From: Prevotella sp.
GTDB lineage: Bacteria; Bacteroidota; Bacteroidia; Bacteroidales; Bacteroidaceae
Length of the DNA: 43,030 bases
Assembly (NCBI GenBank): GCA_017417465.1
Contig: JAFPZD010000204.1
Coordinates: forward strand, 1 to 43,030
Direction: 5' to 3'
Shown: positions 22,057 to 40,142 of the stretch, piece after piece
Position numbering within the stretch: the stretch's first letter is position 1
Layout of the letters: the number at the start of each line of letters is the position of its first letter
Position numbers and translations under genes: made by a program
The notes under the pieces: model-generated
Databases searched by the model: none
What the model was told of the DNA's origin: nothing
The model's input: only the letters and a program-made list of their open reading frames with translations

Positions 22057-22089
22057 TTTGGTAGTTTCGATTTTTTTTATTTATTTTGC
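22057..22089 (+). promoter_or_regulatory. Probable promoter of the SusC/D-FAS1 operon
   Basis: TTTG at 22057-22060, 20 bp of spacer, then TTATTTTGC at 22081-22089, one base off the -7 consensus. It lies 59 bp before the first lipoprotein's ATG. No anti-sigma/ECF pair or hybrid two-component regulator is seen next to it. Confidence 0.55.
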
Positions 22090-22148
22090 ACACTCAAACT
22101 ACCATCATGATTTTATCAAAACAATCAATAACTGCTAAAAAAACATTT

Positions 22149-24938
22149 ATGAAGAAAACCGTTTTCTGTCTCATGCTCGCTCTTGTGGGCATGACGACTG
22201 CCTGCGTTGACAAGAACGAGGCAGTGGATGCTGACAGCAAGCCCTCGTGGCTTGGCGGCAGCATCTATCAGGAACTGAAGAATCCTGAGTACTTGACGGG
22301 CACCTTCAACACGTACCTGCGGTTGGTTGATGACCTTGGCTATGCCGAGGTGCTCAACCGCACGGGTTCGAAGACGGTGTTCCCCGCCAATGACGAGGCA
22401 TTCCAGAGGTTCTTCCAGTCGAACGACTGGGGGGTAAGTAGCTATGCTGGCCTTTCGGATGCCCAGAAGAAGATGCTGCTCTACACGTCGATGCTTGACA
22501 ATGCGCTGCTTGTCAACATGCTGTCGAACGTGAGTAACACGAGCAGCGCCGAGGGTACCGTGACGAAGGGCATGGCCGTGAAGCACCAGACACAGCTGAG
22601 TGCCACGGACAGCATCCAGCTCATCACGGACCAGTCGCTGATGCCCCAGAACAATGTCTACTGGGACAAGTATCGTGATGAGGGCCGCATGTACCTGGTG
22701 AGCGATGCCACGCGCCCGATGATGGTTCACTTTACGCGTGAGCACATGCTGAACAACGGCATCACCACCGACGGCGACAAGAGCGACTTTGCCATCCTCA
22801 CAGGCACACCTTACGAGGAAGGCATGGCCTACATCTTCAACGACCGCATCATCCAGAGCGACATCACCTGCCAGAATGGCTACATCCACCAGATGCAGGA
22901 TGTCATCGTGCCTCCCGGCAACATGGCACAGGTGCTGCGCAACGACAGCAAGACGAGCTACTTCAGCCGCATTCTGGACTACTTCTGCGCTCCCTTTGAG
23001 AACCCGACGGTGACGAGTCAGTTTAACGCTGCACAGCTGGAGAAGGGCCTGCCGACGGTGGACATGATCTACGAGCGCCGCTATCTGAACAACCAGTCGG
23101 CCCACGCCCAGCGCCTGGATCCCGATAACAATATCGTCTCGACGTCGTTCCTGCTCGACTTCGACCCGGGCTGGAATCAGTACAGTCCGCTGCAGGCCTC
23201 GGGTGGCGTCGACTATACCATTGCCGACATCTCGGCTATGTTCGTGCCTACCGATCAGGCCGTCATCGACTTCTTCACCGAGGGTGGCGACGGTGCCTAC
23301 CTGATCGACCTCTACGGCAAGTACACCGGCACTGAGAACAATGTGGCCCACCTGGCTGAGAATCTTGACTCGCTGCACTCGAAGCGTCCGGCCATCCTGA
23401 CGTCGTTTGTGAAGAACCTGATGAAGCCGTCGTTCACGGCCACCGTTCCCAGCAAGTTCGAGACCATCCAGAACGACGCCAACGAGTATATGGGCATCAC
23501 CACCGATCTCATCGACAAGAAGTCGGACGGCAAGTACAACATCACCATTGCCAACAATGGTGTGGTCTACAAGATGAACGAGCTGATAGCTCCCGACGAG
23601 TACCAGAGCGTCATGGCTCCGGCATCGGTCTATCCTGACATGTCGGTGATGAACTGGGCTGTGAAGGACGACGAGCAGCTGGGCGTCTCGCACCACTACT
23701 ACCTGATGGCCATGAAGGCCAACTTCGCCTTCTTCATCCCTGATGACGAGGCTTTCGAGCAGTTCTATATCGACCCCATCTACCTTGGACACAAGGAGCC
23801 GCGTGCCCTGAAGTTCAGCTACGACCCGACGAAGGCTGCCGTGCAGGCTGTGGCCTACGCTTACAACCCTGCCACGGGCGAGATTGGCGAGGTGATGAAC
23901 AACGGCGGTCTGGTGCCCATCGCCCAGTGGAAGTCGCTGTTCGTTGACATCCTGAACTACCACACCGTGGTGCTTGACGACGGTGAGACGTTTGGCACGA
24001 ACAATTTCTATAAGACAAAGCATGGCGGCGAGATCCGTGCCACGGGTGCTACCGTGGGCAGTCGCGTGATGAGCGGCCAGCAGATCGACAATGGCGTGAC
24101 CCCCTCGACCATCGAGAACGTCTACAACGAGAAGAACGGTCAGGCCTTCCGCATCGACCATGTCATCCAGGCACCTCGCAACAGTGTGAGCAAGACGCTG
24201 CAGACCTATCCGGCATTCTCAGAGTTCTACTCCCTCTGCTCAGGCTTCACGTCGAGCCGCGAGCTGATGAAGTGGGCCGGCATCAGCGACTCAACCAACG
24301 TCTTTGGCACCACCGAGCAGGACGCCTACATCATCTTCACCAGCGACCGTGGCAGTGGCAACTCAAAGGTTTCGAACAGCTGTCTGGACGAGAACGTGAA
24401 GATGTTCAACACCTTTAACTATACGCTCTATGCGCCCAACAATGCAGCCATGGAGAAGGCCTACGCCGCCGGACTGCCCCGCTGGGCTGACATCCAGGCA
24501 CTGTACGAGCAGTATGCCAACGATGTCGACGAGAACGGCCAGCCCACGACCACGGCAGCTGCCCAGGCCATGGCAAAAGCCAAGAAGGACATTGGCACGC
24601 TGTGCGACTTTGCCCGCTATCACTTCCAGAGCACCTCGGTCTATGCCGACAACGTGGTGCAGGGTAACCGCTACAACAGCCTGAGTACCGACGAGCTGGG
24701 TCTGGCCATCGAGATGCGCGTCAGCGGCGGTGGCGGCCAGCTGCAGGTGACCGACGCGACGGGTGCCACCATCACCGTCAATGCCAACGACGCCTCGAAG
24801 AAGGTGAACCTGATGGCCCGCGACTACTGGTTCGACCGTGCACGTGCCGACGCCACCTCTATCTATACGTCGTCGTTCTGCGTGGTCCACGAGATTGACA
24901 CACCGCTTAATTCCGGACAGTCGGGACTGAAATGGTAA
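22149..24938 (+). CDS. Outer-membrane lipoprotein with about four fasciclin (FAS1) domains (929 aa)
   Basis: First gene of the operon. The chosen start MKKTVFCLMLALVGMTTAC gives a lipoprotein signal peptide with the lipid-anchored cysteine at residue 19. An upstream in-frame ATG at 22107 would only lengthen the N-region. FAS1-type blocks repeat along the protein: TVFPANDEAFQRF near 80, then a GYIHQMQDVIVPPG strand near 255; a second domain with AMFVPTDQAVIDFF; a third with AFFIPDDEAFEQFY near 530; and a fourth with YTLYAPNNAAMEKAY near 760. FAS1 domains mediate adhesion or ligand binding in many proteins. A surface-exposed ligand-binding partner of the SusC/D pair is inferred from position. 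Its signal peptide is ordinary, unlike those of the later lipoproteins in the operon. Confidence 0.88.
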   Translation: MKKTVFCLMLALVGMTTACVDKNEAVDADSKPSWLGGSIYQELKNPEYLTGTFNTYLRLVDDLGYAEVLNRTGSKTVFPANDEAFQRFFQSNDWGVSSYAGLSDAQKKMLLYTSMLDNALLVNMLSNVSNTSSAEGTVTKGMAVKHQTQLSATDSIQLITDQSLMPQNNVYWDKYRDEGRMYLVSDATRPMMVHFTREHMLNNGITTDGDKSDFAILTGTPYEEGMAYIFNDRIIQSDITCQNGYIHQMQDVIVPPGNMAQVLRNDSKTSYFSRILDYFCAPFENPTVTSQFNAAQLEKGLPTVDMIYERRYLNNQSAHAQRLDPDNNIVSTSFLLDFDPGWNQYSPLQASGGVDYTIADISAMFVPTDQAVIDFFTEGGDGAYLIDLYGKYTGTENNVAHLAENLDSLHSKRPAILTSFVKNLMKPSFTATVPSKFETIQNDANEYMGITTDLIDKKSDGKYNITIANNGVVYKMNELIAPDEYQSVMAPASVYPDMSVMNWAVKDDEQLGVSHHYYLMAMKANFAFFIPDDEAFEQFYIDPIYLGHKEPRALKFSYDPTKAAVQAVAYAYNPATGEIGEVMNNGGLVPIAQWKSLFVDILNYHTVVLDDGETFGTNNFYKTKHGGEIRATGATVGSRVMSGQQIDNGVTPSTIENVYNEKNGQAFRIDHVIQAPRNSVSKTLQTYPAFSEFYSLCSGFTSSRELMKWAGISDSTNVFGTTEQDAYIIFTSDRGSGNSKVSNSCLDENVKMFNTFNYTLYAPNNAAMEKAYAAGLPRWADIQALYEQYANDVDENGQPTTTAAAQAMAKAKKDIGTLCDFARYHFQSTSVYADNVVQGNRYNSLSTDELGLAIEMRVSGGGGQLQVTDATGATITVNANDASKKVNLMARDYWFDRARADATSIYTSSFCVVHEIDTPLNSGQSGLKW

Positions 24939-24998
24939 GCGAGCGCTTCGCTAAAGAATAATGAATAATGAATAATGAATAGTGAAAAGTATTTCGAT
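24939..24998. repeat. 7-bp microsatellite (AATAATG) just upstream of SusC
   Basis: The gap between the first FAS1 gene and susC holds a small palindrome (AGCGAGCGCTTCGCT) and then four units of a 7-bp repeat, AATAATG, the last varied to AATAGTG. It ends about 20 bp before the chosen susC start and creates an upstream in-frame ATG at 24975. Unit number changes would alter spacing to the ribosome site. Confidence 0.75.
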
Positions 24999-27900
24999 AT
25001 GAATATAAAGAAACTATTGCTTACGGCCCTGACGGCCATCGTCTGCCAAGCAGTGATGGCGCAGGGTGTGCGTATATCCGGTACGGTGACCGACAACGAG
25101 GGAGCCGTGATGATGGGTAACGTGGTGGAGCGCGATGCCAACAACCGTATCGTGTCGGCTGCGCAAACCGACTTCAACGGTAACTTCTCGATGCAGATTA
25201 AGAGCACGAAGAACAAACTGGTGATTTCGTATGTGGGCGACAAGACAAAGGTGCTGCCCATTGGCAACCAGACAGTGTTCAAGGTGAAACTTGAGCCTGA
25301 GAACACCACACTGAAGGAAGTGAAGGTCGTCGGTAAGCGTACCAGCTCGGGTGGCCTGACCATTCAGAAGAAAGAGATTACGACGGCTTCGCAGACCTTC
25401 AATATGGAGAACGTCGAAGGTCTGGCCTTCACCTCGGCCGACGAGGCCCTGCAGGGTGAGATTGCCGGTCTCGACATCGTGTCGAACTCGGGTAACCTCG
25501 GTGCCGGTACGACGATGCGCTTGCGTGGTGTGACCACCATCACGGGCGATGCCAACCCGCTGATTGTCGTCGACGACAAGATCTTCGACAACCCTGATGA
25601 GAACTTCGACTTCCAGAACGCCGACGAGGAGGCCTACGCCTCGCTGCTGTCGGTGAACGTCGAGGATATTGCCAGCATCACCGTGCTGAAGGACGCCGCC
25701 GCCACCGCCGTGTGGGGTTCGAAGGGTTCGAACGGTGTGCTGATGATTACCACGAAGCACGGCTCACGCGGCAAACCCCGTGTGAACTTCTCGTACAAGT
25801 ACACTGGCACGTGGCAGCCCAAGGGCTACACCCTGCTGAGCGGTGACGACTACACCATGCTGATGAAGGAGGAGTTCTACAACCCCTCGCAGCTCTCGAC
25901 CGCCACCACCAACGTGGCCGAGCTGAACTACGACGCCTCGGGCTACAACGAGTATCAGAACTGGAACAACAACACCGACTGGGTGGACGCCGTGACACAG
26001 TTTGGCGGCATGCACGACTACAACGTCAACCTGACGGGTGGCGGCCAGAAGGCCACCTTCCGCATCTCGGCAGGCTTCAAGCAGCAGTCGGGTACCATCA
26101 TCAAGCAGAAGTTCAAGCAGTTCACCACGCGTCTGGTGCTCGACTACAACGTGTCAGACCGCATCCGCTTCTCGACCAACTTCGCCCTGACCTATACGGG
26201 CAACAACAAGAACTACGGCAACAACATCCTGTCGCTGGCCCAGAAGATTGCGCCCAACATGAGCATCTACCGCCAGGACGAGAATGGTAACGACACGGGT
26301 GAGTACTACATCATGAACCCCTACCAGAACGGGATGACACCCTACGACGGCAACTTCTCGAGCTACGAGCTGCGCGCCATCTACAATCTGGGCAACCCTG
26401 TGGCCATTGCCAACAAGGCTTGGGCCAAGGAGAACACCTACCGTCTGACGCCCGACTTCAGCATTAAGTACGAGCTGCTGGGCACGGAGGCACAGACCAG
26501 CCGACTGACGCTGAACGGCCGTGTGGACTTCGATATCTATGCCAACAGCTCGCCTGCCTACTATCCCGCCTCGCTGTCGAGCCGCAAGTGGGCCGGTAAC
26601 AACGACTACAACCTCGCCACGGGAACCGAGACCAACCGCATGAAGGTGGGTGGCCGCGTGGAGCTGGTGTTCACGCCCTACTTTAAGAACGAGGACTGGA
26701 CGGCCACCATGCTTGCCCGCTACGAGATGAACACGCAGAAGTACAACACGCAGAACATCAGCCAGAACGACCTGCCGCCGGGCATCACCGACGCCTCGGT
26801 CTTCGCCATGCTGAAGGGTATGGGCAGTGGCAACTCACGCTCAGCTTCGCAGAACCTGCTGTACAACGGTCACGTCAGCTATAAGGACGGCCGCTACTCA
26901 CTGGGCGTCTCGCTGCGTGCCGACGGTGACTCGAAGTTCGGTCCCAAGCACAAGTGGGCCTACTTCCCCGGTGTCTCGCTGCGTTACAACATCAGCGACG
27001 AGCCTTTCTTCAAGCCCATCAAGGGCAACTGGCTCTCGATGCTCGGCCTGCGTGCCTCATGGGGTATCGTGGGTAAGGCTCCCAGCTCGCTGCAATCGTT
27101 CTACAATACTTATAATACCAGTGCTGGCGACTACGGTTTCGTCACCCCGACGAAGTCACACCTGCCCACCGGTTCGCTCGACGGTCTGAAGCTCGACGAC
27201 CTGAAGTGGGAGAAGACCACCAGCTATAACCTCGGTTTCAACCTCGGTCTGCTGAACGACCGTATCGAGGTCGACTTCGACTACTACCACAAGGAGACGC
27301 GCGACCTGCTGATGTCGGGTGTGGCCATCCCCTCGATGGTGGGCTACAGCACGCTGAGCTATATCAACGCCGGCCGCATGGACAACGACGGTTGGGAGCT
27401 GAACTTCACGGCCAAGAAGGTCGTCAACGTCGGCAAGTTCTCAGTGGACGTCGGCTTCAACGTCGCCCAGAACTCCAACCTGTTGAAGGCCATGGACGAG
27501 AGCGTCCTCGACGCCCTTAACAACTACGCCACCAACTATGGCAGCGGCAAGACCGTCACCACGTGGGGCGTCACCGACCGTGGTAACTGGCCGCTGCGCG
27601 TGCAGCTGAACAACTCGCTCGGCTCCATCTACGGCTTCCGCAACCAGGGCGTGTTCCAGTATTCGTGGGACTACCTTGAGAACCTGCAGAAGGAGAAGCA
27701 GTGGGATGCCGCCACCTACGAGGCCGAGATCAACCGCATGCTCGCCGAGGGCATGACCTTCCCCATCGTCCGCGATGAGTTTGGCAAGGTGCTGATGGAC
27801 GCACAGGGTCACCCCACCAAGCTGGTCTATAACTACACCAGCAGCAACGGTACCTCGTCGTCGACCTACACCTTCCAGGGTGGTGACGCCATCTACCAGG

Positions 27901-28448
27901 ACATCAACCACGACGGCCAGATCAACGAGATGGACATTGTCTACCTGGGCAACTCGCTGCCTAAGGTGAACGGTGGTTTCAACTTCACCTTCCGCTATGG
28001 CAACTGGAGCATCAAGACGCGCTTCATGTACCGCTTCGGTAACAAGGTGGTGAACCTGGCACGCCAGAACCTGGAGAAGATGTTCGACACCTACAACCAG
28101 TGCGCATCAGTGAACTACCGCTGGCGTAAGGACGGCGACGTGACACCCATTCCACGCGCCATGTACAACACGTCGTACAACTTCCAGCCCTCCGACCGCT
28201 ATGTCGAGGACGGCGGTTTCGTACGCTTCCAGAACCTCCAGATTGCCTACAACTTCCCCAAGAAGATGATCAAGGAGTGGGGATTCAACCAGTTGCAGGC
28301 CTACGCCTCGCTGAACAACCTCTACGTGTGGACGAAGTACAGCGGCGTGGATCCTGAGATTTCTCCGCAAGGCTACGGTGTCGCCGCCGATGCGTCGCAG
28401 ACACCGCGCTCGAAGCAGTTCACCATCACGCTGAACGTCGGATTCTGA
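24999..28448 (+). CDS. susC-like: SusC/RagA-family TonB-dependent outer-membrane transporter (1149 aa)
   Basis: Energy-coupled importer that forms a barrel capped by its SusD lipoprotein. I start at MNIKKLLLTALTAIVCQAVM (signal peptide ending MAQ), because the earlier ATG at 24975 is made from the microsatellite. Residues about 23-110 are a carboxypeptidase-regulatory-like domain (VRISGTVTDNEGAVMMGNVV). The plug follows with the family signatures ADEALQGEIAGLDIVSNSG and, near residues 230-255, LKDAAATAVWGSKGSNGVL. The remainder is the beta-barrel, ending in the aromatic C-terminus TITLNVGF. The length is typical. The stop codon is followed immediately by the GC-rich repeat that pairs with the start of susD. 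Substrate is unknown. Confidence 0.96.
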   Translation: MNIKKLLLTALTAIVCQAVMAQGVRISGTVTDNEGAVMMGNVVERDANNRIVSAAQTDFNGNFSMQIKSTKNKLVISYVGDKTKVLPIGNQTVFKVKLEPENTTLKEVKVVGKRTSSGGLTIQKKEITTASQTFNMENVEGLAFTSADEALQGEIAGLDIVSNSGNLGAGTTMRLRGVTTITGDANPLIVVDDKIFDNPDENFDFQNADEEAYASLLSVNVEDIASITVLKDAAATAVWGSKGSNGVLMITTKHGSRGKPRVNFSYKYTGTWQPKGYTLLSGDDYTMLMKEEFYNPSQLSTATTNVAELNYDASGYNEYQNWNNNTDWVDAVTQFGGMHDYNVNLTGGGQKATFRISAGFKQQSGTIIKQKFKQFTTRLVLDYNVSDRIRFSTNFALTYTGNNKNYGNNILSLAQKIAPNMSIYRQDENGNDTGEYYIMNPYQNGMTPYDGNFSSYELRAIYNLGNPVAIANKAWAKENTYRLTPDFSIKYELLGTEAQTSRLTLNGRVDFDIYANSSPAYYPASLSSRKWAGNNDYNLATGTETNRMKVGGRVELVFTPYFKNEDWTATMLARYEMNTQKYNTQNISQNDLPPGITDASVFAMLKGMGSGNSRSASQNLLYNGHVSYKDGRYSLGVSLRADGDSKFGPKHKWAYFPGVSLRYNISDEPFFKPIKGNWLSMLGLRASWGIVGKAPSSLQSFYNTYNTSAGDYGFVTPTKSHLPTGSLDGLKLDDLKWEKTTSYNLGFNLGLLNDRIEVDFDYYHKETRDLLMSGVAIPSMVGYSTLSYINAGRMDNDGWELNFTAKKVVNVGKFSVDVGFNVAQNSNLLKAMDESVLDALNNYATNYGSGKTVTTWGVTDRGNWPLRVQLNNSLGSIYGFRNQGVFQYSWDYLENLQKEKQWDAATYEAEINRMLAEGMTFPIVRDEFGKVLMDAQGHPTKLVYNYTSSNGTSSSTYTFQGGDAIYQDINHDGQINEMDIVYLGNSLPKVNGGFNFTFRYGNWSIKTRFMYRFGNKVVNLARQNLEKMFDTYNQCASVNYRWRKDGDVTPIPRAMYNTSYNFQPSDRYVEDGGFVRFQNLQIAYNFPKKMIKEWGFNQLQAYASLNNLYVWTKYSGVDPEISPQGYGVAADASQTPRSKQFTITLNVGF

Positions 28449-28480
28449 AACCCACCCCCTGCCCCTCCCCAAGGGAGGGG
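28449..28480. repeat. GC-rich repeat, left arm of pair A (touches the susC stop)
   Basis: A 32-base copy starting at the first base after the susC stop codon. Its reverse complement matches 28592-28623 at 30 of 32 positions. It is also self-complementary (CCCCTCCC with GGGAGGGG). Confidence 0.93.
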
Positions 28481-28525
28481 AGACGGGATAGACTTGTAAT
28501 AGATAACACATTATTATATAAGACT

Positions 28526-30361
28526 ATGAATAAGAAAACTATTAAAGATAAATTCAGAACAGCCCTACTCTGGATCTGTGGTATCTTAGCCCCCCTCCCT
28601 TGGGGAGGGGTTGGGGGTGGGTTGTTGCTTACCTCCTGTGTTGACACGGTGATCCTGCCCGACGACAAGACTGTGGACGAAGACTTCTGGAAATCGAAGT
28701 CCGACGTGCAGCTGATGGTCAACGGTGCCTACCGCTCGATGCTGTCGCCCGACATCATCTCGCGACTGATTGTCTGGGGTGGCCTGCGCTCTGAAGAGCT
28801 GCTGCCCGTGTCGAACGTGACGGGAAGCCTCGTCGAGGACCTCACTGAGATGAACCTCGCCAACACGCAGCCCGACAACGTGTTTGCACGCTGGGCCGCC
28901 TTCTACCACGTCATCAACAACTGTAACCTCGTGCTGTCGAGAGCCGAATCGGTGATGTACGAGGACCCCTCGTACACTGAGGGCGACTATCTCTCTGACT
29001 GCTCACAGATGTTGGCCCTACGCGCCCTCTGCTACTTCTATCTGGTGCGCAACTTCCGCGACGTGCCCTACGTCACTGAGGCTTTCATGAACAGCAGCCA
29101 GGATCGTAACATCCCGCAGATGGCACCCGACTCGGTGCTCACCGCCTGCATTCGTGACCTGAAGACCGCTGAGCAGAACGCCCTTTCGGCTGCTGCCTTC
29201 AACGACTGGCGCCGTGTGGGCTACATGACGCGCGATGCCATCCAGGCCCTGCTGGCCGACATCTACCTGTGGCGTGCCAGCGTGCTCCACAGCCCGAGCG
29301 ACTATCAGGCCTGCGTCGACTACTGCGACAAGGTGATAGCCTCGAAGAAGAGCCAGCACGTCTTCAGGGGCGGTCAGCGTGAGGAGAAGGACTTCTACCT
29401 GGCTACCGGTCCCCGTGCGTTCAGCGAAATCTTCATCGACCAGAATGCCGAGGAGAGCATTTTCGAGCTGCAGTACAACGGCGTTGACTACTATAACGGT
29501 TCGGCTAAGCGTAATGAGGGCAACTTCGCACTCTGCCAGTATTACACTCACTATTCCGACCGTGGTGCACCCTACCTTTACGCTGCATCGATCTTCCAGA
29601 ACCAGGGCCTCGTCTACACCACCATCACGGGTGCTACGGGTGCTCGCGACTGGCGTGGCCTGAACAACACGTACAACACGCCGGTCACCGTTGGTAGCTA
29701 CGACGGACTGGAGCTGCGCAAGTATGTGGCCGACAACTCTGAGACGGGTGGCAACTACAACCTCATCACGTCGACGTCGTATGCCACGAAGAACCGTGTT
29801 TATGACGTGCAGTACACGCAGAACTTCATCATCTACCGCCTCACCGACGTCATGCTGATGAAGGCCGAGGCCCTGACCGCACTTGCTACGGCCGACGACG
29901 ACATCCTGCTGCGCCAGGCTTTCAACCTTGTGCAGACTGTCAACTCGCGTAGCAAGACCATCGAGTCGTCGAACGACTCCATCCACTGGGTGGCCTTCAA
30001 CACGGGCGTCACCACCATGGAGGAGCTGGTGATGAACGAGCGTCTGCGCGAGCTGGCCTTCGAGGGCAAGCGCTGGTACGACCTGATGCGCTACAACTAC
30101 CGCCACGTCGAGGGTGTCGACTACACTACGACGTTGGCCAGCCAGGACGACCGTGGTGTGGCTCCCGTGAGCAACTATAACAGTAACGCTATGATGAAGC
30201 TGGCTGTCCGCAAGCTGAGCAACGGCGACGCCGTCGCCGCCAAGATGAGCACCGAGCCGAAGCTCTACCTGCCCATCCCGCTGTCTGACATCAACGTCTG
30301 TCCCGTCCTGCGTCAGAACCCAGCCTACGGTACTAACGATAATTATAGCAAGAACTACTGA
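28526..30361 (+). CDS. susD-like: SusD/RagB-family lipoprotein (611 aa) with repeat-encoded signal peptide
   Basis: The lid and glycan-binding partner of the upstream SusC. The lipoprotein signal peptide is long and odd. After MNKKTIKDKFRTALLWICGI, residues 22-32 read APLPWGGVGGG and are encoded entirely by the right arm of the GC-rich inverted repeat (28592-28623). The lipobox LLTSC follows, with the cysteine at residue 38. The mature part has the SusD tetratricopeptide-like helices (SDVQLMVNGAYRSMLSP, YHVINNCNLVLSRAE, LALRALCYFYLVRNFRDVPY) and the C-terminal signature ERLRELAFEGKRWYDLMRYN near residue 508. The start fits an ATG 78 bp after susC. There is no obvious alternative start past the repeat that would leave a usable signal peptide. 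Confidence 0.95.
   Translation: MNKKTIKDKFRTALLWICGILAPLPWGGVGGGLLLTSCVDTVILPDDKTVDEDFWKSKSDVQLMVNGAYRSMLSPDIISRLIVWGGLRSEELLPVSNVTGSLVEDLTEMNLANTQPDNVFARWAAFYHVINNCNLVLSRAESVMYEDPSYTEGDYLSDCSQMLALRALCYFYLVRNFRDVPYVTEAFMNSSQDRNIPQMAPDSVLTACIRDLKTAEQNALSAAAFNDWRRVGYMTRDAIQALLADIYLWRASVLHSPSDYQACVDYCDKVIASKKSQHVFRGGQREEKDFYLATGPRAFSEIFIDQNAEESIFELQYNGVDYYNGSAKRNEGNFALCQYYTHYSDRGAPYLYAASIFQNQGLVYTTITGATGARDWRGLNNTYNTPVTVGSYDGLELRKYVADNSETGGNYNLITSTSYATKNRVYDVQYTQNFIIYRLTDVMLMKAEALTALATADDDILLRQAFNLVQTVNSRSKTIESSNDSIHWVAFNTGVTTMEELVMNERLRELAFEGKRWYDLMRYNYRHVEGVDYTTTLASQDDRGVAPVSNYNSNAMMKLAVRKLSNGDAVAAKMSTEPKLYLPIPLSDINVCPVLRQNPAYGTNDNYSKNY
28592..28623. repeat. GC-rich repeat, right arm of pair A (inside the susD signal-peptide codons)
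   Basis: Inverted copy of 28449-28480 with 2 mismatches in 32 and a 111-bp loop that contains the susD start codon. Codons in frame give PLPWGGVGGG. Confidence 0.93.
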
Positions 30362-30362
30362 T

Positions 30363-30540
30363 AACCCACCCCCTGCCCCTCCTCTAAGGGAGGGGGAGAG
30401 GTTAGTCCCTGCAATAGAAATCTTACATTTATTAAATAGTATAGTTATGTTTTTCACACACAAAGATATTACAGCAAAGGCTCGAAAGTGGTTTTTGTGT
30501 ATATTAACATCCCTCCCGTTGGGAGGGCTTGGGTGGGCTC
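30363..30540. repeat. Inverted repeat pair B between susD and the second FAS1 gene
   Basis: Left arm 30363-30396 starts 1 base after the susD stop. The right arm, 30511-30540, lies inside the next gene's signal-peptide codons and is a more diverged version (CCCTCCCGTTGGGAGGGC). The arms remain largely complementary, and each is itself a hairpin. Confidence 0.8.
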
Positions 30541-32561
30541 TCACTTCCTGCAATCCTGAACCCGACGAGTCGGATCTCTACACCTTCACGGGCGAGACCA
30601 TCGAGTCGTACATACAGCAGGACAGCATGCTCACGGCCTTCAACTACATCCTCTCGCGTGTCGGCTACGACCGCATGATGGCCGCCTACGGCACCTACAC
30701 CTGCTTCGCGCCTACCAACGACGGCGTGATGGCCTACTGTGACAGCCTCTATAACGATCCTGAGGCCATCATCCCTCATAACGGCATGACCGAGAACTCG
30801 CTCGAGGGCCTCTCAGACAGTCTTTGTCTGAACATCGCCCGCTACCACCTGAGCACCACTTACCGTAACATCGTCTCGCTGACGGGCAACGGTGAGGTCA
30901 CCACGCTGCTGGGCTACGAGTTTTCGTTCTCATCGACCAGCGAGGGACAAACCATCCTTGGCGACAAGGCTGTCATCATCAGTTCTGACAACGAGACCAC
31001 TAATGGCATCGTCCACATCATCGACAATGTCATTCCACGCTTCACACGCTTCATCGACGACGTGCTCGAGCGCGACGGTGGCTACACCATCTTCTCAGAA
31101 GCCCTCAGGGTGACGGGTCTGGCCGACTCGCTGCAGGCCTATACCAAGGGTACCTTCGACTACAAGCAGCTGACGCGTGAGAACTTCAGCGGCTCCATCT
31201 ATCCTGCCAACGGCACGGGTACCTCGGGCACTGTCGACTGTAAGGTGGGCTACACCGTGTTTGCCGAGAGCGACGAGGTGATGCGCGCCAACGGCATCAA
31301 CAACTTTGCCGACCTGGTAGCCAAGGCCAACGAGTGGTACGGACAGGCTCCCGACTGGTACGACTACATGAACGAGAACGGCATCACGGTGAGCACTGGC
31401 AATGACTACACCGAACGCTTCAACGCGCTGAACATGTTCGTCGCCTACCACATCATCAAGGCCTCGATGTCCATCAACCAGCTCGTCTTCGAGAAGGGTA
31501 GCAGCACCTACTGGAACTATGCGCCCGATGCCGATCCGCACGACTACTACGAGACGATGCTGCCCCACACGATGATGAAAATCTGGGAACCCGTTAACGT
31601 GGGTACAGGCAAGAGCCTCTTCATCAACCGCTATCGTCTGAACAACACGCTGACCGACGAGCTGGCATCGCAGGGCTCTGAGGCCATGCACGAGCTCATC
31701 CGTCCGGGCGTGCTCGTTGTCCGCGGCGGTTCGCTGCTGGCCTACAACGGCTATGTACACGCCATCAACGGCATGCTCGTCTACGACCGCATCGTGCCGA
31801 AGGGTGTGCTCAACGAGCGTATGCGCGTCAACTGTACGTCGCTGTTCCCTGAACTTATCACTAACCGCTTCCGCTATTGGTCGACGGGCGATGGCAACGT
31901 CCCCAGCTCGCACGACACGTCGCGCGCCGGTATTCCTTCGAAGTATTTCGACAACATGAAGCTCTACGACGAGAACATCTGCTTTGCCTACTGTCTGCAC
32001 GGCGCATGGCGCTGCTTCCAGTCAGACCAGATGCAGTTCTGGGGACAGTACGACCTGGCCTTCAAGCTGCCGTCCGTTCCCTCGGGCATCTACGAGATCC
32101 GCGTCGTCTATGCTCCCATGAGCTACGGCTCGTTCATGCAGTACTTCATTGGCACGTCGTCGAGCGTCTCGTCGATGCAGGCCTTAGGACTGCCGTTCGA
32201 TGCTACCGTGCCTGTTGAAGACCCCCGCATCGGTATGACCAATGTCAACGATGAGGAGGATATGGGCGTTTCCACTGACGTGGCCATGCACAACCGTGGC
32301 TATATGCGTGGCCCCTACAGCTATTGCGGACATGCCGAGAATGGCTGGTCGACCACTAACAACGGACGCTTTGAGTGGGGTGGCAGCATGACCGTGCGTT
32401 ACGTCCTCGGTCGCGTGCAGCTGAACCAGGGTAACGAGAACTGGCTCCGCATCAAGACGCTGAACCCTGACAAGAAGACCAACCCCGTAGGCCTCGACTT
32501 CGTTGAGCTGGTGCCTGCCAGCGTGCTCGACAACCAGCAGTACATTGAGGACTGGTACTAA
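30447..32561 (+). CDS. FAS1-domain lipoprotein with C-terminal beta-sandwich (704 aa)
   Basis: Signal peptide MFFTHKDITAKARKWFLCIL, then a repeat-derived segment TSLPLGGLGW, then lipobox ALTSC with the cysteine at residue 35. Two FAS1 domains follow: one with FNYILSRVGYDRMMAAY and YTCFAPTNDGVMAY, closing with GIVHIIDNVIPRF near residue 195; and one with YTIFSEALRVTGLADSL and YTVFAESDEVMRANG. Residues about 500-700 form a separate domain (LPSVPSGIYEIRVVY, then NWLRIKTLNPDKKTNPVG) that looks like a carbohydrate-binding or discoidin-like sandwich. Predicted to sit on the cell surface and bind the ligand handled by the SusC/D complexes. A specific function is not recognised. Confidence 0.85.
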   Translation: MFFTHKDITAKARKWFLCILTSLPLGGLGWALTSCNPEPDESDLYTFTGETIESYIQQDSMLTAFNYILSRVGYDRMMAAYGTYTCFAPTNDGVMAYCDSLYNDPEAIIPHNGMTENSLEGLSDSLCLNIARYHLSTTYRNIVSLTGNGEVTTLLGYEFSFSSTSEGQTILGDKAVIISSDNETTNGIVHIIDNVIPRFTRFIDDVLERDGGYTIFSEALRVTGLADSLQAYTKGTFDYKQLTRENFSGSIYPANGTGTSGTVDCKVGYTVFAESDEVMRANGINNFADLVAKANEWYGQAPDWYDYMNENGITVSTGNDYTERFNALNMFVAYHIIKASMSINQLVFEKGSSTYWNYAPDADPHDYYETMLPHTMMKIWEPVNVGTGKSLFINRYRLNNTLTDELASQGSEAMHELIRPGVLVVRGGSLLAYNGYVHAINGMLVYDRIVPKGVLNERMRVNCTSLFPELITNRFRYWSTGDGNVPSSHDTSRAGIPSKYFDNMKLYDENICFAYCLHGAWRCFQSDQMQFWGQYDLAFKLPSVPSGIYEIRVVYAPMSYGSFMQYFIGTSSSVSSMQALGLPFDATVPVEDPRIGMTNVNDEEDMGVSTDVAMHNRGYMRGPYSYCGHAENGWSTTNNGRFEWGGSMTVRYVLGRVQLNQGNENWLRIKTLNPDKKTNPVGLDFVELVPASVLDNQQYIEDWY

Positions 32562-32564
32562 GAG

Positions 32565-32742
32565 ACCCACCCCCTGCCCCTCCCCAAGGGAGGAGAGACG
32601 GGTTACACTTTCAAATAAATTACTCAATATAACTATAATAAAGTATGAAGAATAATAGATTTCCAGATAGATGCAAGGCTGCCCTACTATGGCTCGGTGC
32701 TATATTAGCCCCCCTCCCTTGGGGAGGGGTTGGGGGTGGGTT
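32565..32742. repeat. Inverted repeat pair C between the second and third FAS1 genes
   Basis: Left arm 32565-32595 starts 3 bases after the stop codon at 32559-32561. The right arm, 32711-32742, is inside the next gene and is identical over its 32 bases to the right arm of pair A. Confidence 0.92.
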
Positions 32743-34525
32743 CCTTTGCTCCTGTTCCGACTTTGACGACTATAACAAGGAGGTGGCCGACGCCAACGCA
32801 TCGGCAGGCCAGACCTTGTGGGAGAACATCAAGGGCAACTCGCAGCTGAGCGACTTTGCTGCCTTGATCCAGAAGGCCGGCTTCGACGATGAGCTGAACC
32901 AGACACAGTACTACACGGTGTGGGCTCCGCTGAATGGAACCTACAACGCCGCCGACTTCCAGGCCTTAGACAACAACGCTCTGGTGCGCCAGTTCGTCAA
33001 GAACCACATTGCCAGCTATGCCCACAGCGCCTCTGGCCAAATCAATGATCGCATCCTGATGCTCAACGAGAAGTCGTACAACTTTACGGGCTCACAGCCC
33101 TACACCTTCGACGACGTGACACTGCAGTCGGCCAACCTGCCCAGCAGCAACGGTCTGCTCCACACGCTGCAGGGTGTCGCCACATTCTATCCCAACCTCT
33201 ACGAGTTCATCACCGACTCGTTGCTGGCTGTCGGCAAGGACATCGACTCGCTGCGCCACTTCTACCAGAAGTACGAGACCACCTATCTCGACACCGATGC
33301 TTCGGTCTTGGGTCCCATTGTTGATGGTATGCAGACTTACGTCGACTCTGTGATGATTACCGAGAATACGCTATGGCGCGATCTCAATTCCAAGATTCAC
33401 AACGAGGATAGTACGTACACCTTCATCATGCCGACCAATCGTGCATGGACAAGCACCTACGAGCGCATCAAGGACCACTTCGTCTATCTGCCGACGACAT
33501 CGGCCCAGTATTTCAACGGCCAGTCCGTTACGAATGTGACTACCGACGTCGACAATGCTTACTTGCAGGACTCGCTGGCTAACCTCTATCTGACCAGCTA
33601 CCTCGTCTATAGCAACAACGATGCCTATAACCAGTGGATGGAGCGCAGTCCCAGCATGTTGGGCACCGACACGCTGCGCACGACGCTGCGTGACAAGCTG
33701 TCGAACCCAACTGAAATCCTTGCCCAGACACGCGAGAAGCTGAAGATGAGCAACGGTGTGGCACGTATTGTCGACAGTCTGGCGTTCTATCCCTGGGAGA
33801 CCTATTCACCGGCCCTTGTCTATCCGCCTCATTACAGCAGCATCCAAGCTCGCGTGCTCACTGGCTATCCACAGACCGTTCAGGTGACGAACCCTGATCC
33901 CACCAAGGTTGACCTGGAAGTGCTGAAGCACACATGGGGCAACAACAATTTTTCCTATCTCTATGTGGAGCCTAACGCCGGTACATCGAAGCCTGAGCTC
34001 GACGTCTACCTGCCTGATGTGCGCAGCACCACCTACGATTTCTATTGTGTCTTCGTGCCGAAGAGCGTGGAAATGGGCGACACTACCGTCCAGCTGCCTA
34101 ACCGCGTGGTGTTCACACTGAACTACTGCGACGAGAATGGCAAACTGCAGAACTACGTCTTCAAGGACGAGCGCGAAGAGAACAAGCAGTGGCTCACTGA
34201 ATACTACGAGGCCACGAAGGCCGCTATAATCGCTGCCGACCCGTCGGTGAAGATTACCGGTAACCCCGACGCAGCCACCATGACCGCCTTCACGAACGAC
34301 GTGACGAAGGTCGACACCCTCTATCTGGGTGAGTTCACCTTCCCCGTCAGCTACTATGGCCTGCGCAACAACCGCGATTACCTCTGTCCGAACCTCAAGA
34401 TCACCTCGCCCTTCTCAGTGTTCAATAAGGCACTGTTGGCAGGCTTTGAGCGCGGCATTCGTATCTCGGCTATCATCTTGAAGCCGAAAGACCTCGTCGA
34501 ATTTGAAGAATCTAAAAAGCAATGA
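32645..34525 (+). CDS. FAS1-domain lipoprotein (626 aa) with repeat-encoded signal peptide
   Basis: Signal peptide starts MKNNRFPDRCKAALLWLGAI. Residues 22-32 are APLPWGGVGGG, encoded by the right arm of repeat pair C. The lipobox FLCSC puts the cysteine at residue 37. The mature protein has FAS1-like blocks: LSDFAALIQKAGFDDEL with YTVWAPLNGTYNAADF, closed by GLLHTLQGVATFYPNLYE near 180; and a second with YTFIMPTNRAWTSTYERI near 260. The last 300 residues include a sandwich-like region (PNRVVFTLNYCDENG) that I cannot assign. Its stop codon overlaps the start of the following susC (ATGA), which indicates translational coupling of this lipoprotein to that transporter. Confidence 0.83.
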   Translation: MKNNRFPDRCKAALLWLGAILAPLPWGGVGGGFLCSCSDFDDYNKEVADANASAGQTLWENIKGNSQLSDFAALIQKAGFDDELNQTQYYTVWAPLNGTYNAADFQALDNNALVRQFVKNHIASYAHSASGQINDRILMLNEKSYNFTGSQPYTFDDVTLQSANLPSSNGLLHTLQGVATFYPNLYEFITDSLLAVGKDIDSLRHFYQKYETTYLDTDASVLGPIVDGMQTYVDSVMITENTLWRDLNSKIHNEDSTYTFIMPTNRAWTSTYERIKDHFVYLPTTSAQYFNGQSVTNVTTDVDNAYLQDSLANLYLTSYLVYSNNDAYNQWMERSPSMLGTDTLRTTLRDKLSNPTEILAQTREKLKMSNGVARIVDSLAFYPWETYSPALVYPPHYSSIQARVLTGYPQTVQVTNPDPTKVDLEVLKHTWGNNNFSYLYVEPNAGTSKPELDVYLPDVRSTTYDFYCVFVPKSVEMGDTTVQLPNRVVFTLNYCDENGKLQNYVFKDEREENKQWLTEYYEATKAAIIAADPSVKITGNPDAATMTAFTNDVTKVDTLYLGEFTFPVSYYGLRNNRDYLCPNLKITSPFSVFNKALLAGFERGIRISAIILKPKDLVEFEESKKQ

Positions 34526-37500
34526 ACATGAAGCGCACGATATTCAATCTTTTGCAGACCTGCGGCCACAGGATCGCCGTCTGCACAATGGTGTTGGGAC
34601 TCACTACCACCGTCTATGCCCAGACCGACGACTTCGAGGAGGAAGAGGTGGAGAGCGGCATCAAGCAGCCCGACCGTTCCAAGATGCGTCAGGACAACTA
34701 TCCCACGATGCTGCTCCGTGGCAAGGTGCTCGACCAGGCCACAGGCACACCTCTCGCCGGTATTCAGCTCCGTGCCTTAGGCTATGAGCGCTATACGGCC
34801 ATGACCGAGGACGATGGCACGTTCGCCATCAAGGTGCCCACGTTTGCCACCGCACTCTATGTCTATTCGCCCGAATACCTGCCTCAGCAGGTGGCCATCG
34901 TTGCTGGCGACAGCACGCAGGCGGTGCAAGTCCGCATGCTCAGCGACAAGTTTGCCGGCATGTACGGCACTGGCACCGACTATACGGCGCGTCGCACGGC
35001 CCTGATCAATCGTTTCGGCGTCACCGTTGACGACGAGGTGGCTGGCAAGCTGGGTGCCGACGTGCGTAGCATCCTTCATTCGGCATCCGCCGGTGCAGGT
35101 GCCTCGATGTTCATCCGTGGCCTCAACAGCATCACCAGCGACGCTCAGCCGCTCGTCATCGTCGATGGCGTCGAGCAGGACATGCAGCGTGACCGCTACT
35201 CGTTGCACGAGGGCCAGTTCAACAACATTCTGGCCAACATCGCCCCCGACGACATCGAGAAGGTGACGGTGCTCAAGAATGCCACCGCCCTCTACGGTGC
35301 ACGTGGTGCCAATGGCGTCATCCTCGTCGACACCAAACGCGGCCGTTCGATGGCTACGCGCATCGATGCCAACATTTCGGCCGGTGTGCAGCTCATCCCG
35401 CAGCTGCCCACGCTGATGAACGCAGCCCAGTATCGTACCTACGCCACTGAGATGCTTGGCACGCTGCCTAACATCAACGACTACCGCAACTTCTACTTCC
35501 TCGACGACGATCCCAACGGGTACTACTACCACACCTACCACAACAACACCGACTGGACCGACGAGATCTATCGTACGGCCATGACGCAGAACTATAGCGT
35601 CAACGTCCAGGGTGGTGATGATGTAGGTATGTACAATCTCTCCGTGGGTTACGTCAAAGCCGAGAACACGCTGAAGAAGAGCGACTTCGACCGCATGAAC
35701 GTTCGCTTCAATACCGATATCAGCATCCTCTGGAACCTCTCCACGAAGTTCGATATCTCTATTGCGCGTACGAATAATAATGTGTTCGACGATGGACTGC
35801 CCGCCAGCTTCGCAAAGTCGACCGTTACCGCGCCGACAGCACTGGCACTGATCAAGTCGCCACTCGTCGCACCTTATCAGTACAACGCCCTCGTGGGTGG
35901 CTTCACCAGCCTGCTGAGCAGCTTCGACGACATTCTCTCGTGCAGCGAGAGGCCCGTGTCGGGAGCCGTCAGCAATTACTCGCTGGCCAACCCGCTGGCC
36001 ATCCTCGAGAATGGTTCTGGTGACAACAAGAACAAAGCCGAGACCACCTACTTCACACTGCGCGTGGCACCTGAGTACAAGCTGAGCAACGCACTGACGC
36101 TCTCAGCCGACCTGAGCTACATGCTCAACCGCAATGCACAGCGCTACTATCGTCCGTTTGTGGGTGTGCCTTCGTTCACTGTCGACGAGATGGGCTCCGT
36201 CACCTCGATGGTCGTCTCGATGTTTGCCAAGCAGCAGAACTTCATGGGCCGTCTGCAGCTCGACTGGAAGAAGCAGATGGGCAAGCACACCGTCGACGCT
36301 TTCGTCGGTGGACGCTACAACTACTTCTCATACGACAACACCGACCTCTCGACCGAATACTCAGGCGTCAAGGACGACAAGAACCCGGCCCTCGCCACCT
36401 CGCCGTTCCCCAACGTGGAAGGTGTCAACGATGTATGGAAGAACATCCAGTGGTACGGCAATGTCGACTATAACTACATGAACCGCTACTTCGCAACGCT
36501 CTCGCTGCTGGCCGAGTCGAACAGCCGCTTCGGCGAGAATGCCGACGGTCTGGGACTCTTCGGCGTGAAGTGGGCTCTCTTCCCAAGCCTCCAGCTGGGT
36601 TGGGTGATGACCAACGAGGACTGGTTCCCCAAGCAGGGCGTTGTCAACTACCTGCGCCTGAATGCCGGCTTCGACATCAGCGGCAACGACAACATCTCTA
36701 ACTACGCCGCACGCACCAGCTTCTCGACTGTGAAGTATGAGAACACTGCCGTCGGTCTGCAGCTCACTAACATTGGTAATGATAAGATTCAGTGGGAGAC
36801 CACCAAGAAGATGAACGTCGGACTGCAGAGCTACCTCTTCAACAATCGACTGGGCCTCTCGCTCGATTTCTTCCTCCACAAGACTGACAACCTGCTGATG
36901 CTCAAGTCGTTCTCGAATCCCATCGGTGGTATCAACAACTATTGGAGCAACGGTGGCTCGCTCGAGAACAAGGGCTTCGAGGCCATGGTGACCTATAAGC
37001 CCGTCGTCCTGCGCGACTGGCGCGTCGAGGTGGGTGCCTCAGTGGGCCACTATAAGAATAAGGTGACGAAGCTGCCCGACGGCAACTTCACCTCCTCGGT
37101 CTATGGCGAGGACAACATTCTCACTGCCGTTGACGGACCCGTGGCCCAGTTCTATGGCTACCAGACGGCTGGCATCCTGGCCGACGACGCTGCCGCACGC
37201 GCTGCTGGTGGTGGCAAGTACCTCTATTTGGAGGACAATGCTGGCAATGCCTACAACTTCGTTGCTGGCGACGTGCACTTCGTCGACCGCAATGGCGACG
37301 GCAAGATCAGTGCTGCCGACAAGACCGTCATCGGTGATCCCAACCCCGACTTCTACGGCAACATCTTTGCGACTGTCAACTATAAGCGCCTGACGCTCGC
37401 CATGGGGCTCAACTACTCGCTGGGCAACGACGTATTCAACTACCAGCGCTCCATCCTCAACAGTGGCTCGACGTTCTACAACCAGCAGGTGGCTGAGTCT

Positions 37501-37839
37501 GCACGCTGGCGTTACGAAGGTCAGCAGGCAGAGCTGCCGCGCGTGGCCTACGGCGACCCCATGGGCAACAACCGCTTCAGCGACCGCTGGATCGAGGACG
37601 GCTCATACCTGCGTCTGAAGAGCGTCAACCTCTCGTATCAGGTGCCCGTGCCCGGTTCGTGGACATGGCTGCAGGGCCTCACCGTCTGGGCCGAGGCTCA
37701 GAACCTGCTGACGCTGACCAAGTATCTGGGTAGCGACCCCGAGTTCTCGGTTGCTCATAGCGTCTTCTATCAGGGCATCGACAGTGGCATGCTCGCCCCC
37801 GGTCGCACATTCATGGCCGGTGTGAAGATCAATCTGTAA
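34522..37839 (+). CDS. susC-like: SusC/RagA-family TonB-dependent transporter, second copy (1105 aa)
   Basis: Starts in a 4-base ATGA overlap with the preceding FAS1 gene; a second ATG two codons later is also possible. The signal peptide ends near residue 34 (TTTVYAQ). After an acidic linker (DDFEEEEVESG) comes a carboxypeptidase-regulatory-like domain (LRGKVLDQATGTPLAGIQLR). The plug follows with FIRGLNSITSDAQPLVIVDG and, near 250-274, LKNATALYGARGANGVILVD. The barrel ends at AGVKINL. It is clearly diverged from the first SusC in sequence, so the pair is probably not a recent duplication. Partner lipoproteins are the FAS1 protein upstream and the SusD downstream. Substrate unknown. Confidence 0.95.
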   Translation: MNMKRTIFNLLQTCGHRIAVCTMVLGLTTTVYAQTDDFEEEEVESGIKQPDRSKMRQDNYPTMLLRGKVLDQATGTPLAGIQLRALGYERYTAMTEDDGTFAIKVPTFATALYVYSPEYLPQQVAIVAGDSTQAVQVRMLSDKFAGMYGTGTDYTARRTALINRFGVTVDDEVAGKLGADVRSILHSASAGAGASMFIRGLNSITSDAQPLVIVDGVEQDMQRDRYSLHEGQFNNILANIAPDDIEKVTVLKNATALYGARGANGVILVDTKRGRSMATRIDANISAGVQLIPQLPTLMNAAQYRTYATEMLGTLPNINDYRNFYFLDDDPNGYYYHTYHNNTDWTDEIYRTAMTQNYSVNVQGGDDVGMYNLSVGYVKAENTLKKSDFDRMNVRFNTDISILWNLSTKFDISIARTNNNVFDDGLPASFAKSTVTAPTALALIKSPLVAPYQYNALVGGFTSLLSSFDDILSCSERPVSGAVSNYSLANPLAILENGSGDNKNKAETTYFTLRVAPEYKLSNALTLSADLSYMLNRNAQRYYRPFVGVPSFTVDEMGSVTSMVVSMFAKQQNFMGRLQLDWKKQMGKHTVDAFVGGRYNYFSYDNTDLSTEYSGVKDDKNPALATSPFPNVEGVNDVWKNIQWYGNVDYNYMNRYFATLSLLAESNSRFGENADGLGLFGVKWALFPSLQLGWVMTNEDWFPKQGVVNYLRLNAGFDISGNDNISNYAARTSFSTVKYENTAVGLQLTNIGNDKIQWETTKKMNVGLQSYLFNNRLGLSLDFFLHKTDNLLMLKSFSNPIGGINNYWSNGGSLENKGFEAMVTYKPVVLRDWRVEVGASVGHYKNKVTKLPDGNFTSSVYGEDNILTAVDGPVAQFYGYQTAGILADDAAARAAGGGKYLYLEDNAGNAYNFVAGDVHFVDRNGDGKISAADKTVIGDPNPDFYGNIFATVNYKRLTLAMGLNYSLGNDVFNYQRSILNSGSTFYNQQVAESARWRYEGQQAELPRVAYGDPMGNNRFSDRWIEDGSYLRLKSVNLSYQVPVPGSWTWLQGLTVWAEAQNLLTLTKYLGSDPEFSVAHSVFYQGIDSGMLAPGRTFMAGVKINL

Positions 37840-38013
37840 ACCCACCCCCTCCCCAAGGGAGGGGACATCGGTTAGACTTACAATACAGAAAAAACGTTAT
37901 AAAAACATATCATATATGAACAGCAAGACATTGAGAAAAAGAATACAAATATGGTTCCTACGTGTTTGTGCTATTATAGCCCCCCTCACTTGGGGAGGGG
38001 TTGGGGGTGGGTT
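37839..38013. repeat. Inverted repeat pair D between the second susC and second susD
   Basis: The left arm, 37839-37864, overlaps the last base of the susC stop codon and lacks six bases of the GC-rich unit. The right arm, 37982-38013, lies in the susD signal-peptide codons; one difference from pair A changes PLPW to PLTW. Confidence 0.9.
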
Positions 38014-39802: not shown

Positions 39803-39815
39803 CCTTAGTCCCCTT

Positions 39816-39841
39816 AGCCCCCTAAGTTAGGGGGTTGGGGG
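39816..39841 (+). terminator. Hairpin after the operon (CCCCCTAA / TTAGGGGG)
   Basis: CCCCCTAA (39818-39825) pairs with TTAGGGGG (39827-39834), 14 bp after the last gene. A GGTTGGGGGT tail resembles the GC-rich repeat of the operon junctions. There is no T-tract, so termination here is plausible rather than clear. Confidence 0.45.
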
Positions 39842-39902
39842 TCTGAACAAGCGCAAATTCCCCTCCCCCTCCAAAAGGAGAATCTACGCAATCATTCTTA
39901 AT

Positions 39903-39918
39903 GTACCGAATTCGGTAC
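39903..39918. repeat. Perfect 16-bp palindrome GTACCGAATTCGGTAC
   Basis: Self-complementary over all 16 bases. It lies directly before the 22-bp array and about 225 bp upstream of the third AAA-ATPase gene. It could be an operator or a cruciform; no family is recognised. Confidence 0.6.
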
Positions 39919-39920
39919 AA

Positions 39921-40027
39921 TTAGTCAGTAGCTGAACCCCATTCAGCCAGCAGCTGAATGCAAGTAAGACGGTTGCTGAATACGAGTAAGATGGTAGCTG
40001 AATCCAATTCAGTCGCCGTCTTACTTT
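39921..40027. repeat. 22-bp-period array upstream of the third AAA-ATPase gene
   Basis: GCTGAA starts at 39931, 39953, 39975 and 39997, and GTAAGA(C/T)GG at 39964 and 39986, all 22 bp apart. An inverted copy, CCGTCTTAC, occurs at 40016-40024 and could fold back on the array. The array ends about 60 bp before the promoter. Confidence 0.85.
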
Positions 40028-40091
40028 TTACTGAAAGCTGGATGTCGTGGCCGGTTCCCGTCTCCTAAGTTGTTAAATGTTGTATTTCTTA

Positions 40092-40122
40092 TTTGATTTC
40101 AAAAAAGAAATTGTAATTTTGC
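40092..40122 (+). promoter_or_regulatory. Bacteroides-type promoter for the third AAA-ATPase gene
   Basis: TTTG at 40092-40095, 18 bp of spacer, then TAATTTTGC at 40114-40122. It places the transcription start just before the ATG at 40143 and excludes the earlier in-frame ATG at 40077. Confidence 0.75.
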
Positions 40123-40142
40123 AAGCAAAATTATTACTACAG

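Follow-up and report, generated by a model that had tools for sequence, protein, structure and literature searches.

Short palindromes that occur in inverted pairs, often right after stop codons, are typical of the REP/BIME repeats with their RAYT transposases. Palindromic repeats that are translated within proteins are best known from Rickettsia, whose Rickettsia palindromic elements (RPEs) are repeats of ∼150 bp, nearly half of the first R. conorii set lying within open reading frames (ORFs) (PMC10969869). BrickBuilt of Porphyromonas gingivalis, a miniature inverted-repeat transposable element (MITE), is reported to be strictly intergenic (PMC10969869). In the Vpma, Vsp and Vsa lipoproteins of mycoplasmas the 5′ untranslated and signal-peptide regions are conserved, the gene starts recombine, and inversion links silent genes to one promoter (PMC2268961). 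Here we describe a GC-rich palindromic repeat from a 43,030-bp stretch of Prevotella sp. DNA (contig JAFPZD010000204.1 of assembly GCA_017417465.1; hereafter the window, i.e. the whole stretch analysed), which is contig C80 of the genome designated G000 (4.42 Mb, 278 contigs). Our analysis makes it probable that this repeat family has a larger form which serves as a portable 5′-end cassette for lipoproteins, spread by recombination or gene conversion and retained as a working signal.

The repeat resembles REP/BIME elements in consisting of short inverted-pair palindromes often found directly behind stop codons, but differs from them in often lying within ORFs. It is RPE-like in being palindromic, of similar size, present in many copies and in frame in genes for unrelated proteins (PMC10969869). 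When the two are set side by side by description, the differences are the GC-rich arms of the Prevotella repeat and its larger form supplying a start codon and signal peptide, which is not mentioned for RPEs in the available part of the same source (PMC10969869). MITEs such as BrickBuilt are likewise inverted-repeat elements, and in the same phylum (PMC10969869), although the Prevotella repeat is also found in ORFs and without a detected target-site duplication. As in the Vpma, Vsp and Vsa genes, a conserved leader and signal peptide precede differing lipoproteins (PMC2268961); however, in Prevotella every gene comes with a cassette of its own, and none of 25 cassette flank places showed an inverted form. 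The available part of a P. gingivalis repeat annotation (PMC5771137) contains nothing comparable, and among the matches listed for open-licence papers (titles and abstract beginnings) there was no report of this repeat or of mobile Prevotella signal-peptide cassettes.

Arm pairs at the lipoprotein junctions of the window

In the cassette, a left arm right behind the upstream stop codon is followed by a leader, the start codon and a signal peptide with the right arm (PLPWGGVGGG) as its final portion. Four junctions of the window carry this arrangement, and the unit at the first of them measures 185 bp. SusD and Fasciclin assignments are by Pfam, and lipoboxes were identified by eye and by regular expression. 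The features are as follows.

28449..28480, + strand, left arm of cassette A, directly after the susC stop codon TGA (28446-28448)
28449..28633, + strand, interval of cassette A without BLAST homology to cassette-free orthologous loci; homology is back at the Ser-Cys codons of the lipobox, 28634
28526..28639, + strand, start codon and SusD signal peptide of cassette A (MNKKTIKDKFRTALLWICGILAPLPWGGVGGGLLLTSC)
28592..28623, + strand, right arm of cassette A, translated as PLPWGGVGGG within the signal peptide
30363..30396, + strand, left arm of cassette B, 1 nt past the SusD stop codon
30447..30551, + strand, start codon and signal peptide of the first Fasciclin lipoprotein, cassette B (MFFTHKDITAKARKWFLCILTSLPLGGLGWALTSC)
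30510..30541, + strand, right arm of cassette B, second sub-family (SLPLGGLGW)
32564..32595, + strand, left arm of cassette C, 2 nt past the stop codon (32559-32561)
32645..32755, + strand, start codon and signal peptide of the second Fasciclin lipoprotein, cassette C
32711..32742, + strand, right arm of cassette C
37840..37864, + strand, left arm of cassette D, shortened, directly after the second susC stop codon
37916..38026, + strand, start codon and signal peptide of the second SusD, cassette D
37982..38013, + strand, right arm of cassette D
22086..24938, + strand, counter-example, a Fasciclin lipoprotein gene in this cluster that lacks arms

We scored the complementarity of the arms at each junction against 500 shuffles. 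Pairs A (28449/28592), C (32564/32711) and D (37840/37982) were complementary at 30 of 32, 27 of 29 and 22 of 24 positions respectively, and in none of these cases was any of the 500 shuffles as good. Pair B (30363/30511) is degenerate, its left/right score being reached by 12 of 500 shuffles; each of its arms is individually still recognisable as a copy of the repeat, the right arm belonging to a second sub-family (SLPLGGLGWAL). The window holds eight palindromes where 0.12 were expected, and all of them lie at the four junctions.

An earlier note on this DNA, made from the sequence alone, had reported inverted arm pairs at all four junctions; A, C and D lie far above chance, and the degenerate pair B does not share in this. 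The match of 30 of 32 bases given there for pair A was reproduced exactly, and at all four junctions the left arm does begin 0-3 nt past a stop codon with the start codon between the arms. The arm spacing, put at about 110-115 bp, has to be corrected to 111-119 nt for the three pairs given by the repeat finder. Nor do arms precede every lipoprotein gene as had been stated: the Fasciclin gene at 22086-24938 has none, leaving four of the five in the cluster, and genome-wide the figure for SusD genes is 12 of 32. The junctions before the susC genes had been called arm-free, which is so for 24939-24974 (495 of 500 shuffles reach its score); after 34525 there is no recognisable arm, but a gapped match with 7 gap positions is present there that only 5 of 500 shuffles reach.

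Right arms of the second sub-family (SLPLGGLGWAL/SLPSGGLGWAF) were also seen in the lipoprotein signal peptides of loci L041 and L116, in addition to window 30510-30541. An arm of this kind is tandemly duplicated in the gene C27b and adjoins a first-family arm in C27a.

Replacement of native leaders and sharing between lipoproteins

We compared the first SusD of the window with 398 genomes of the genus, its own included, 119 of which had a match at E <= 1e-100, and read the best 30 loci. Among the 28 readable loci in other genomes there was one cassette (in G163, with the left arm retained and the right arm decayed), one doubtful remnant (in G096) and 26 other leaders, often short ones (e.g. 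MKKYISMIVASLMAVSC). When the window was aligned with five cassette-free orthologs, homology stopped at 28446-28450, i.e. at the susC stop codon, and in four of the five it resumed at 28634, with the Ser codon that precedes the lipobox Cys; in the fifth it resumed at 28651. This break in homology is not mere fast divergence, because several of the cassette-free ortholog leaders look alike (as judged by eye). Two paralogous susC-susD loci of G000, C163 with a cassette and C67 without, share 83% DNA identity up to the susC stop codon and 85% from the lipobox TCCTGC onward, while the intervals between these points (191 vs 136 bp) gave no BLAST match at E 1e-3. In the loci that were compared, the cassette occupies the place of the native sequence between the stop codon upstream and the lipobox.

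An assembly artefact was considered as the sole cause and was rejected, given that the lipoprotein-type arm recurs in five named assemblies, that at one locus the cassette is common to the window and G163, whose DNA is 80% identical there without interruption, and that the arms are only ∼32 nt long.

G000 encodes 32 SusD genes (union of two SusD models), of which 12 carry an intact or degenerate right arm within the signal peptide and 20 lack one; two of the 12 (C49a and C49b) have the right arm without a left arm. The other carriers in this genome are the two Fasciclin genes of the window, an S41 peptidase lipoprotein, a 660-aa lipoprotein and two further lipoprotein ORFs in L041. Right arms in lipoprotein signal peptides are read in the PLxWGG frame. 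A scripted set drawn from 25 input loci comprised 34 cassettes from eight genomes; the script's filters (mismatch, lipobox, start, length) removed the carriers C27a, the first window Fasciclin gene, C232c, L162 and a cut-off gene in L161, and L116 (C27b) and L176 were outside its input. The distance from ATG to arm was exactly 22 codons in 22 of the 34. Mean identity of the signal-peptide DNA among the 12 G000 cassettes (65 pairs) was 52%, or 0.48 when the last 12 nt were left out, as compared with 32% (lipobox alignment) or 37% (ATG alignment) among 19 arm-free lipoprotein leaders of G000, a control from which C270 and C141 were excluded and in which C67 was shortened by the lipobox expression. 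At one further locus (L166 ∼2600-2750, genome G065) the left arm seems to provide the stop codon of the upstream gene (TAA within CACCCCTAACCCC; frame read by eye).

Cassettes are also shared by neighbouring genes whose products are otherwise unrelated. In G153, three adjacent lipoprotein genes share a unit that starts at CCCACCCCC, past the stop codon of the preceding gene, and extends through the right arm; over 60 nt, their signal-peptide DNA is 90-97% identical, and their mature parts have no mutual BLAST match below 1e-5. The same sharing was found in G065 (three genes, 77-83%) and G125 (two genes, 77%). Homologous cassettes precede unrelated mature lipoproteins. In four of six pairs of homologous lipoproteins taken from two genomes, the leader DNA was less alike than between unrelated lipoproteins of one of the two. 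For example, C27a of G000 and its G153 homolog are 80% identical in the mature protein and 45% in signal-peptide DNA, that of the G153 homolog being 87% identical to the signal-peptide DNA of an unrelated G153 lipoprotein. The replacement breakpoints, the cassettes common to non-homologous lipoproteins and these four ortholog pairs together support the suggestion, made in the earlier note, of a mobile repeat copied with lipoprotein 5′ ends.

These results can be accommodated by the following scheme. In this family a spacer separates a left arm from an inverted right one, and pairs within proteins lie in one frame; the larger form would be a portable 5′-end cassette for lipoproteins, whose spacer carries a leader, in which a ribosome-binding site is presumed, together with the start codon and, in most cases, 22 codons, and whose right arm would be translated as the final part of the lipoprotein signal peptide. 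Recombination or gene conversion may have spread and homogenised the cassette, for the most part among junctions that lie next to each other, and the arms and the conserved lipobox codons (TCCTGC) would then have provided the homology at its ends; alternatively, the larger form may have transposed and the old leader then been lost. The cassette would be retained because it works as a lipoprotein signal and not for the pairing of its arms.

Several points weigh against this scheme or limit it. The remaining two of the six homologous pairs fit vertical descent equally well or better, the six were hand-picked, and two of the four supporting pairs have only 42% and 56% mature identity. For non-homologous pairs among all 34 cassettes, the mean was 0.52 within a genome (93 pairs) and 0.51 between genomes (319 pairs), with 0.27 for shuffled sequences; since the same- and different-genome means are nearly equal, most cassettes seem to share an old origin, and by this comparison recent copying appears clear only inside some operons. 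Plain insertion would leave the old leader behind, so that replacement would require a recombination step. No target-site duplication was detected in 24 units (mean 1.79 vs 1.92 for permuted flanks, p = 0.74), and a search for mobilising genes, limited to Y1 transposases, yielded none. Many of the genomes are fragmented, incomplete assemblies, and G000 is estimated to be 5.5% contaminated. Finally, the signal-peptide function of the cassette is presumed from inspection of its sequence.

A repeat family between genes and within proteins

The arms belong to a GC-rich family of palindromic repeats in Prevotella, whose copies are tolerated both between genes and within proteins. Exact matches of the nearly self-complementary palindrome CCCTYCCNNNGGGAGGGG in G000 number 66 forward and 65 reverse, and its reversed control has none in either direction (0 + 0); with up to 3 mismatches, the oriented arm has 57 + 61 matches vs 6 + 8 for the control. 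The repeat unit thus has many dispersed copies, as RPEs do, and it has terminal inverted repeats, as MITEs do. We surveyed 48 stretches around listed match places of G000, together with the window, allowing up to 2 mismatches in the 19-nt arm core. Of 63 arm clusters, 11 lay in lipoprotein signal peptides, 10 were pairs within ORFs, 16 were arms in single ORFs not counted as pairs, and 26 were intergenic or other; the script undercounts signal peptides, as the carriers L041 and L062 fell in the class of 16 and window 30365 in the intergenic/other class. All 24 clusters of the surveyed stretches that held both arm types had the left arm before the right.

The two arms of a pair within an ORF were in the same reading frame in 10 of 10 cases, translating to PTPxPSP and (P)WGGxGGG-like peptides; some single arms within ORFs were in other frames (L039, L052, L073). 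Hosts of pairs that scored above the curated cut-off were RecG, LigA, Mfd (two units), FtsY and DnaG; those below it were proteins like MetH, UvrA and hybrid histidine kinases, and the host in L053 had no NCBIfam match. The in-frame core-gene copies in G000 are at loci L034, L036, L040, L048, L050, L053, L054, L057 and L059. Some of them contain tandemly repeated arms, the UvrA-like gene having three right arms. At the G000 sites in DnaG and LigA, which are loops of variable length among relatives, the insert was absent from 11 of 11 aligned orthologs each. Two of the 11 DnaG orthologs, from two other species (G022, L210, and G023, L212), carry the repeat at other sites in the same PTPxxSP / PLPWGG frame. 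At L076:9551-10486, a single ORF has DUF559 and YgbB (IspF) domains with a right arm in the linker, possibly a gene fusion created by the element.

Competing explanations, mobility and distribution

The earlier note had also offered a long-range mRNA stem that sets lipoprotein expression. In its fuller form, a regulatory stem across the leader and start codon would tune lipoprotein output relative to SusC or stabilise the susC 3′ end, selection having placed the pairs there. The pairing itself is predicted: model folds join the two arms of junctions A (-91 kcal/mol), C (-85 kcal/mol) and D (-62 kcal/mol), and own-locus arms pair slightly better than arms swapped within genomes (-70.2 vs -69.0 kcal/mol over 25 loci, p = 0.06) or over all genomes (p = 0.005). 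Expression control, however, is neither shown nor needed, because such paired arms are also found in housekeeping ORFs and between genes, because C49a and C49b have a right arm only and the right arm of G163 is decayed, and because own-locus arms improve so little on swapped ones. Moreover, at junction B the arms match poorly and the predicted fold is mainly of local hairpins, in 20 of the 32 SusD genes the signal peptide lacks a right arm, and window 24000-40000 has no Rfam family at gathering score. A stem effect on translation or expression is possible, if weakly supported by these predictions, and we regard a regulatory stem as the reason for the arrangement as unlikely. It is still harder to credit that the arms were inserted independently, with left arms preferring stop codons, right arms harmless in signal peptides as PLPWGGVGGG, and the likeness of the leaders merely that of n-region and hydrophobic-core composition. 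Left arms without a right arm do lie a few bases from stop codons elsewhere (e.g. L042, L055, L076), and the common PLxWGG frame of the signal-peptide arms would also fit, but independent insertion leaves unexplained the arm-to-arm homology of spacer DNA in adjacent genes with unrelated mature proteins, the fixed 22-codon spacing and the replacement of whole intervals at orthologous and paralogous loci. The operons of G153, G065 and G125 already contradict it.

A start codon flanked by inverted repeats could also suggest that the arms are recombination sites and that the segment with start codon and signal peptide flips, turning lipoproteins on and off, and there is a precedent in some Bacteroides species, whose surface genes are switched by DNA inversion (PMC2268961). 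Yet 23 of the 25 places with the cassette flank upstream of a right arm lead into lipoprotein ORFs, and neither of the remaining two reads like an inverted leader of a lipoprotein, so that no inverted form was seen among these places in the loci examined (assemblies, not reads); cassettes with a single arm also persist. Such a switch is very unlikely. A bolder version of the cassette reading, which we put forward tentatively, is that a selfish palindromic repeat has taken up a start site for translation together with a signal peptide for lipoproteins. As an address-label cassette it would now be moving through operons for surface proteins, maybe via a dedicated recombination system that recognises the arms.

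A Y1 (RAYT) transposase was rejected as the mobiliser: an arm lay ∼240 bp away at only 1 of 19 Y1 loci (L246), and one further arm was >1 kb from a Y1 gene (L232). There was no Y1 gene in 4 of 14 arm-bearing genomes, those four being only 56-91% complete. In this respect too the repeat departs from REP/BIME elements, since the two RAYT-like Y1 genes of G000 (L001 and L002) each lie amid a different repeat family of their own (translated as ALKGRQNTGGG and VGAGLVPARWP respectively).

If the preferred reading, a repeat family with a portable lipoprotein cassette as its larger form, is true, gut Bacteroidota contain a sizeable family of coding repeats, in frame in DnaG, LigA, RecG, Mfd and FtsY. 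With the lipoprotein form, a signal peptide and translation start would be movable between unrelated proteins at the DNA level, with codon-precise breakpoints at the loci compared, much as a protein's address label might be swapped. The origin and spread of new signal peptides, rarely testable, would open to comparison over many Prevotella genomes, and gene-start prediction and ortholog comparison of SusD-type proteins would be affected. Should the repeat also have captured the signal, as in the bolder version, this would amount to a kind of exon shuffling in bacteria, the repeat itself being translated within the export signal, and lipoproteins of polysaccharide utilisation could swap expression and export signals.

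The arm was present in 12 of 60 genomes, again counting its own, all of the same genus and with 1 to 77 copies each. The lipoprotein-type flank (up to 3 mismatches) was found in 34 of the 398 genomes of the genus, not all of these matches being lipoprotein cassettes. In a collection of named genomes, the exact pattern occurred at seven loci in five assemblies, six loci being from Prevotella sp. and one from an uncultured Prevotellaceae bacterium; the record titles of five of the seven refer to roe deer or sheep, rumen or abomasum. In the window itself, an AAA-ATPase_like / PDDEXK_9 gene lies at 40077-41735, downstream of the lipoprotein cluster.

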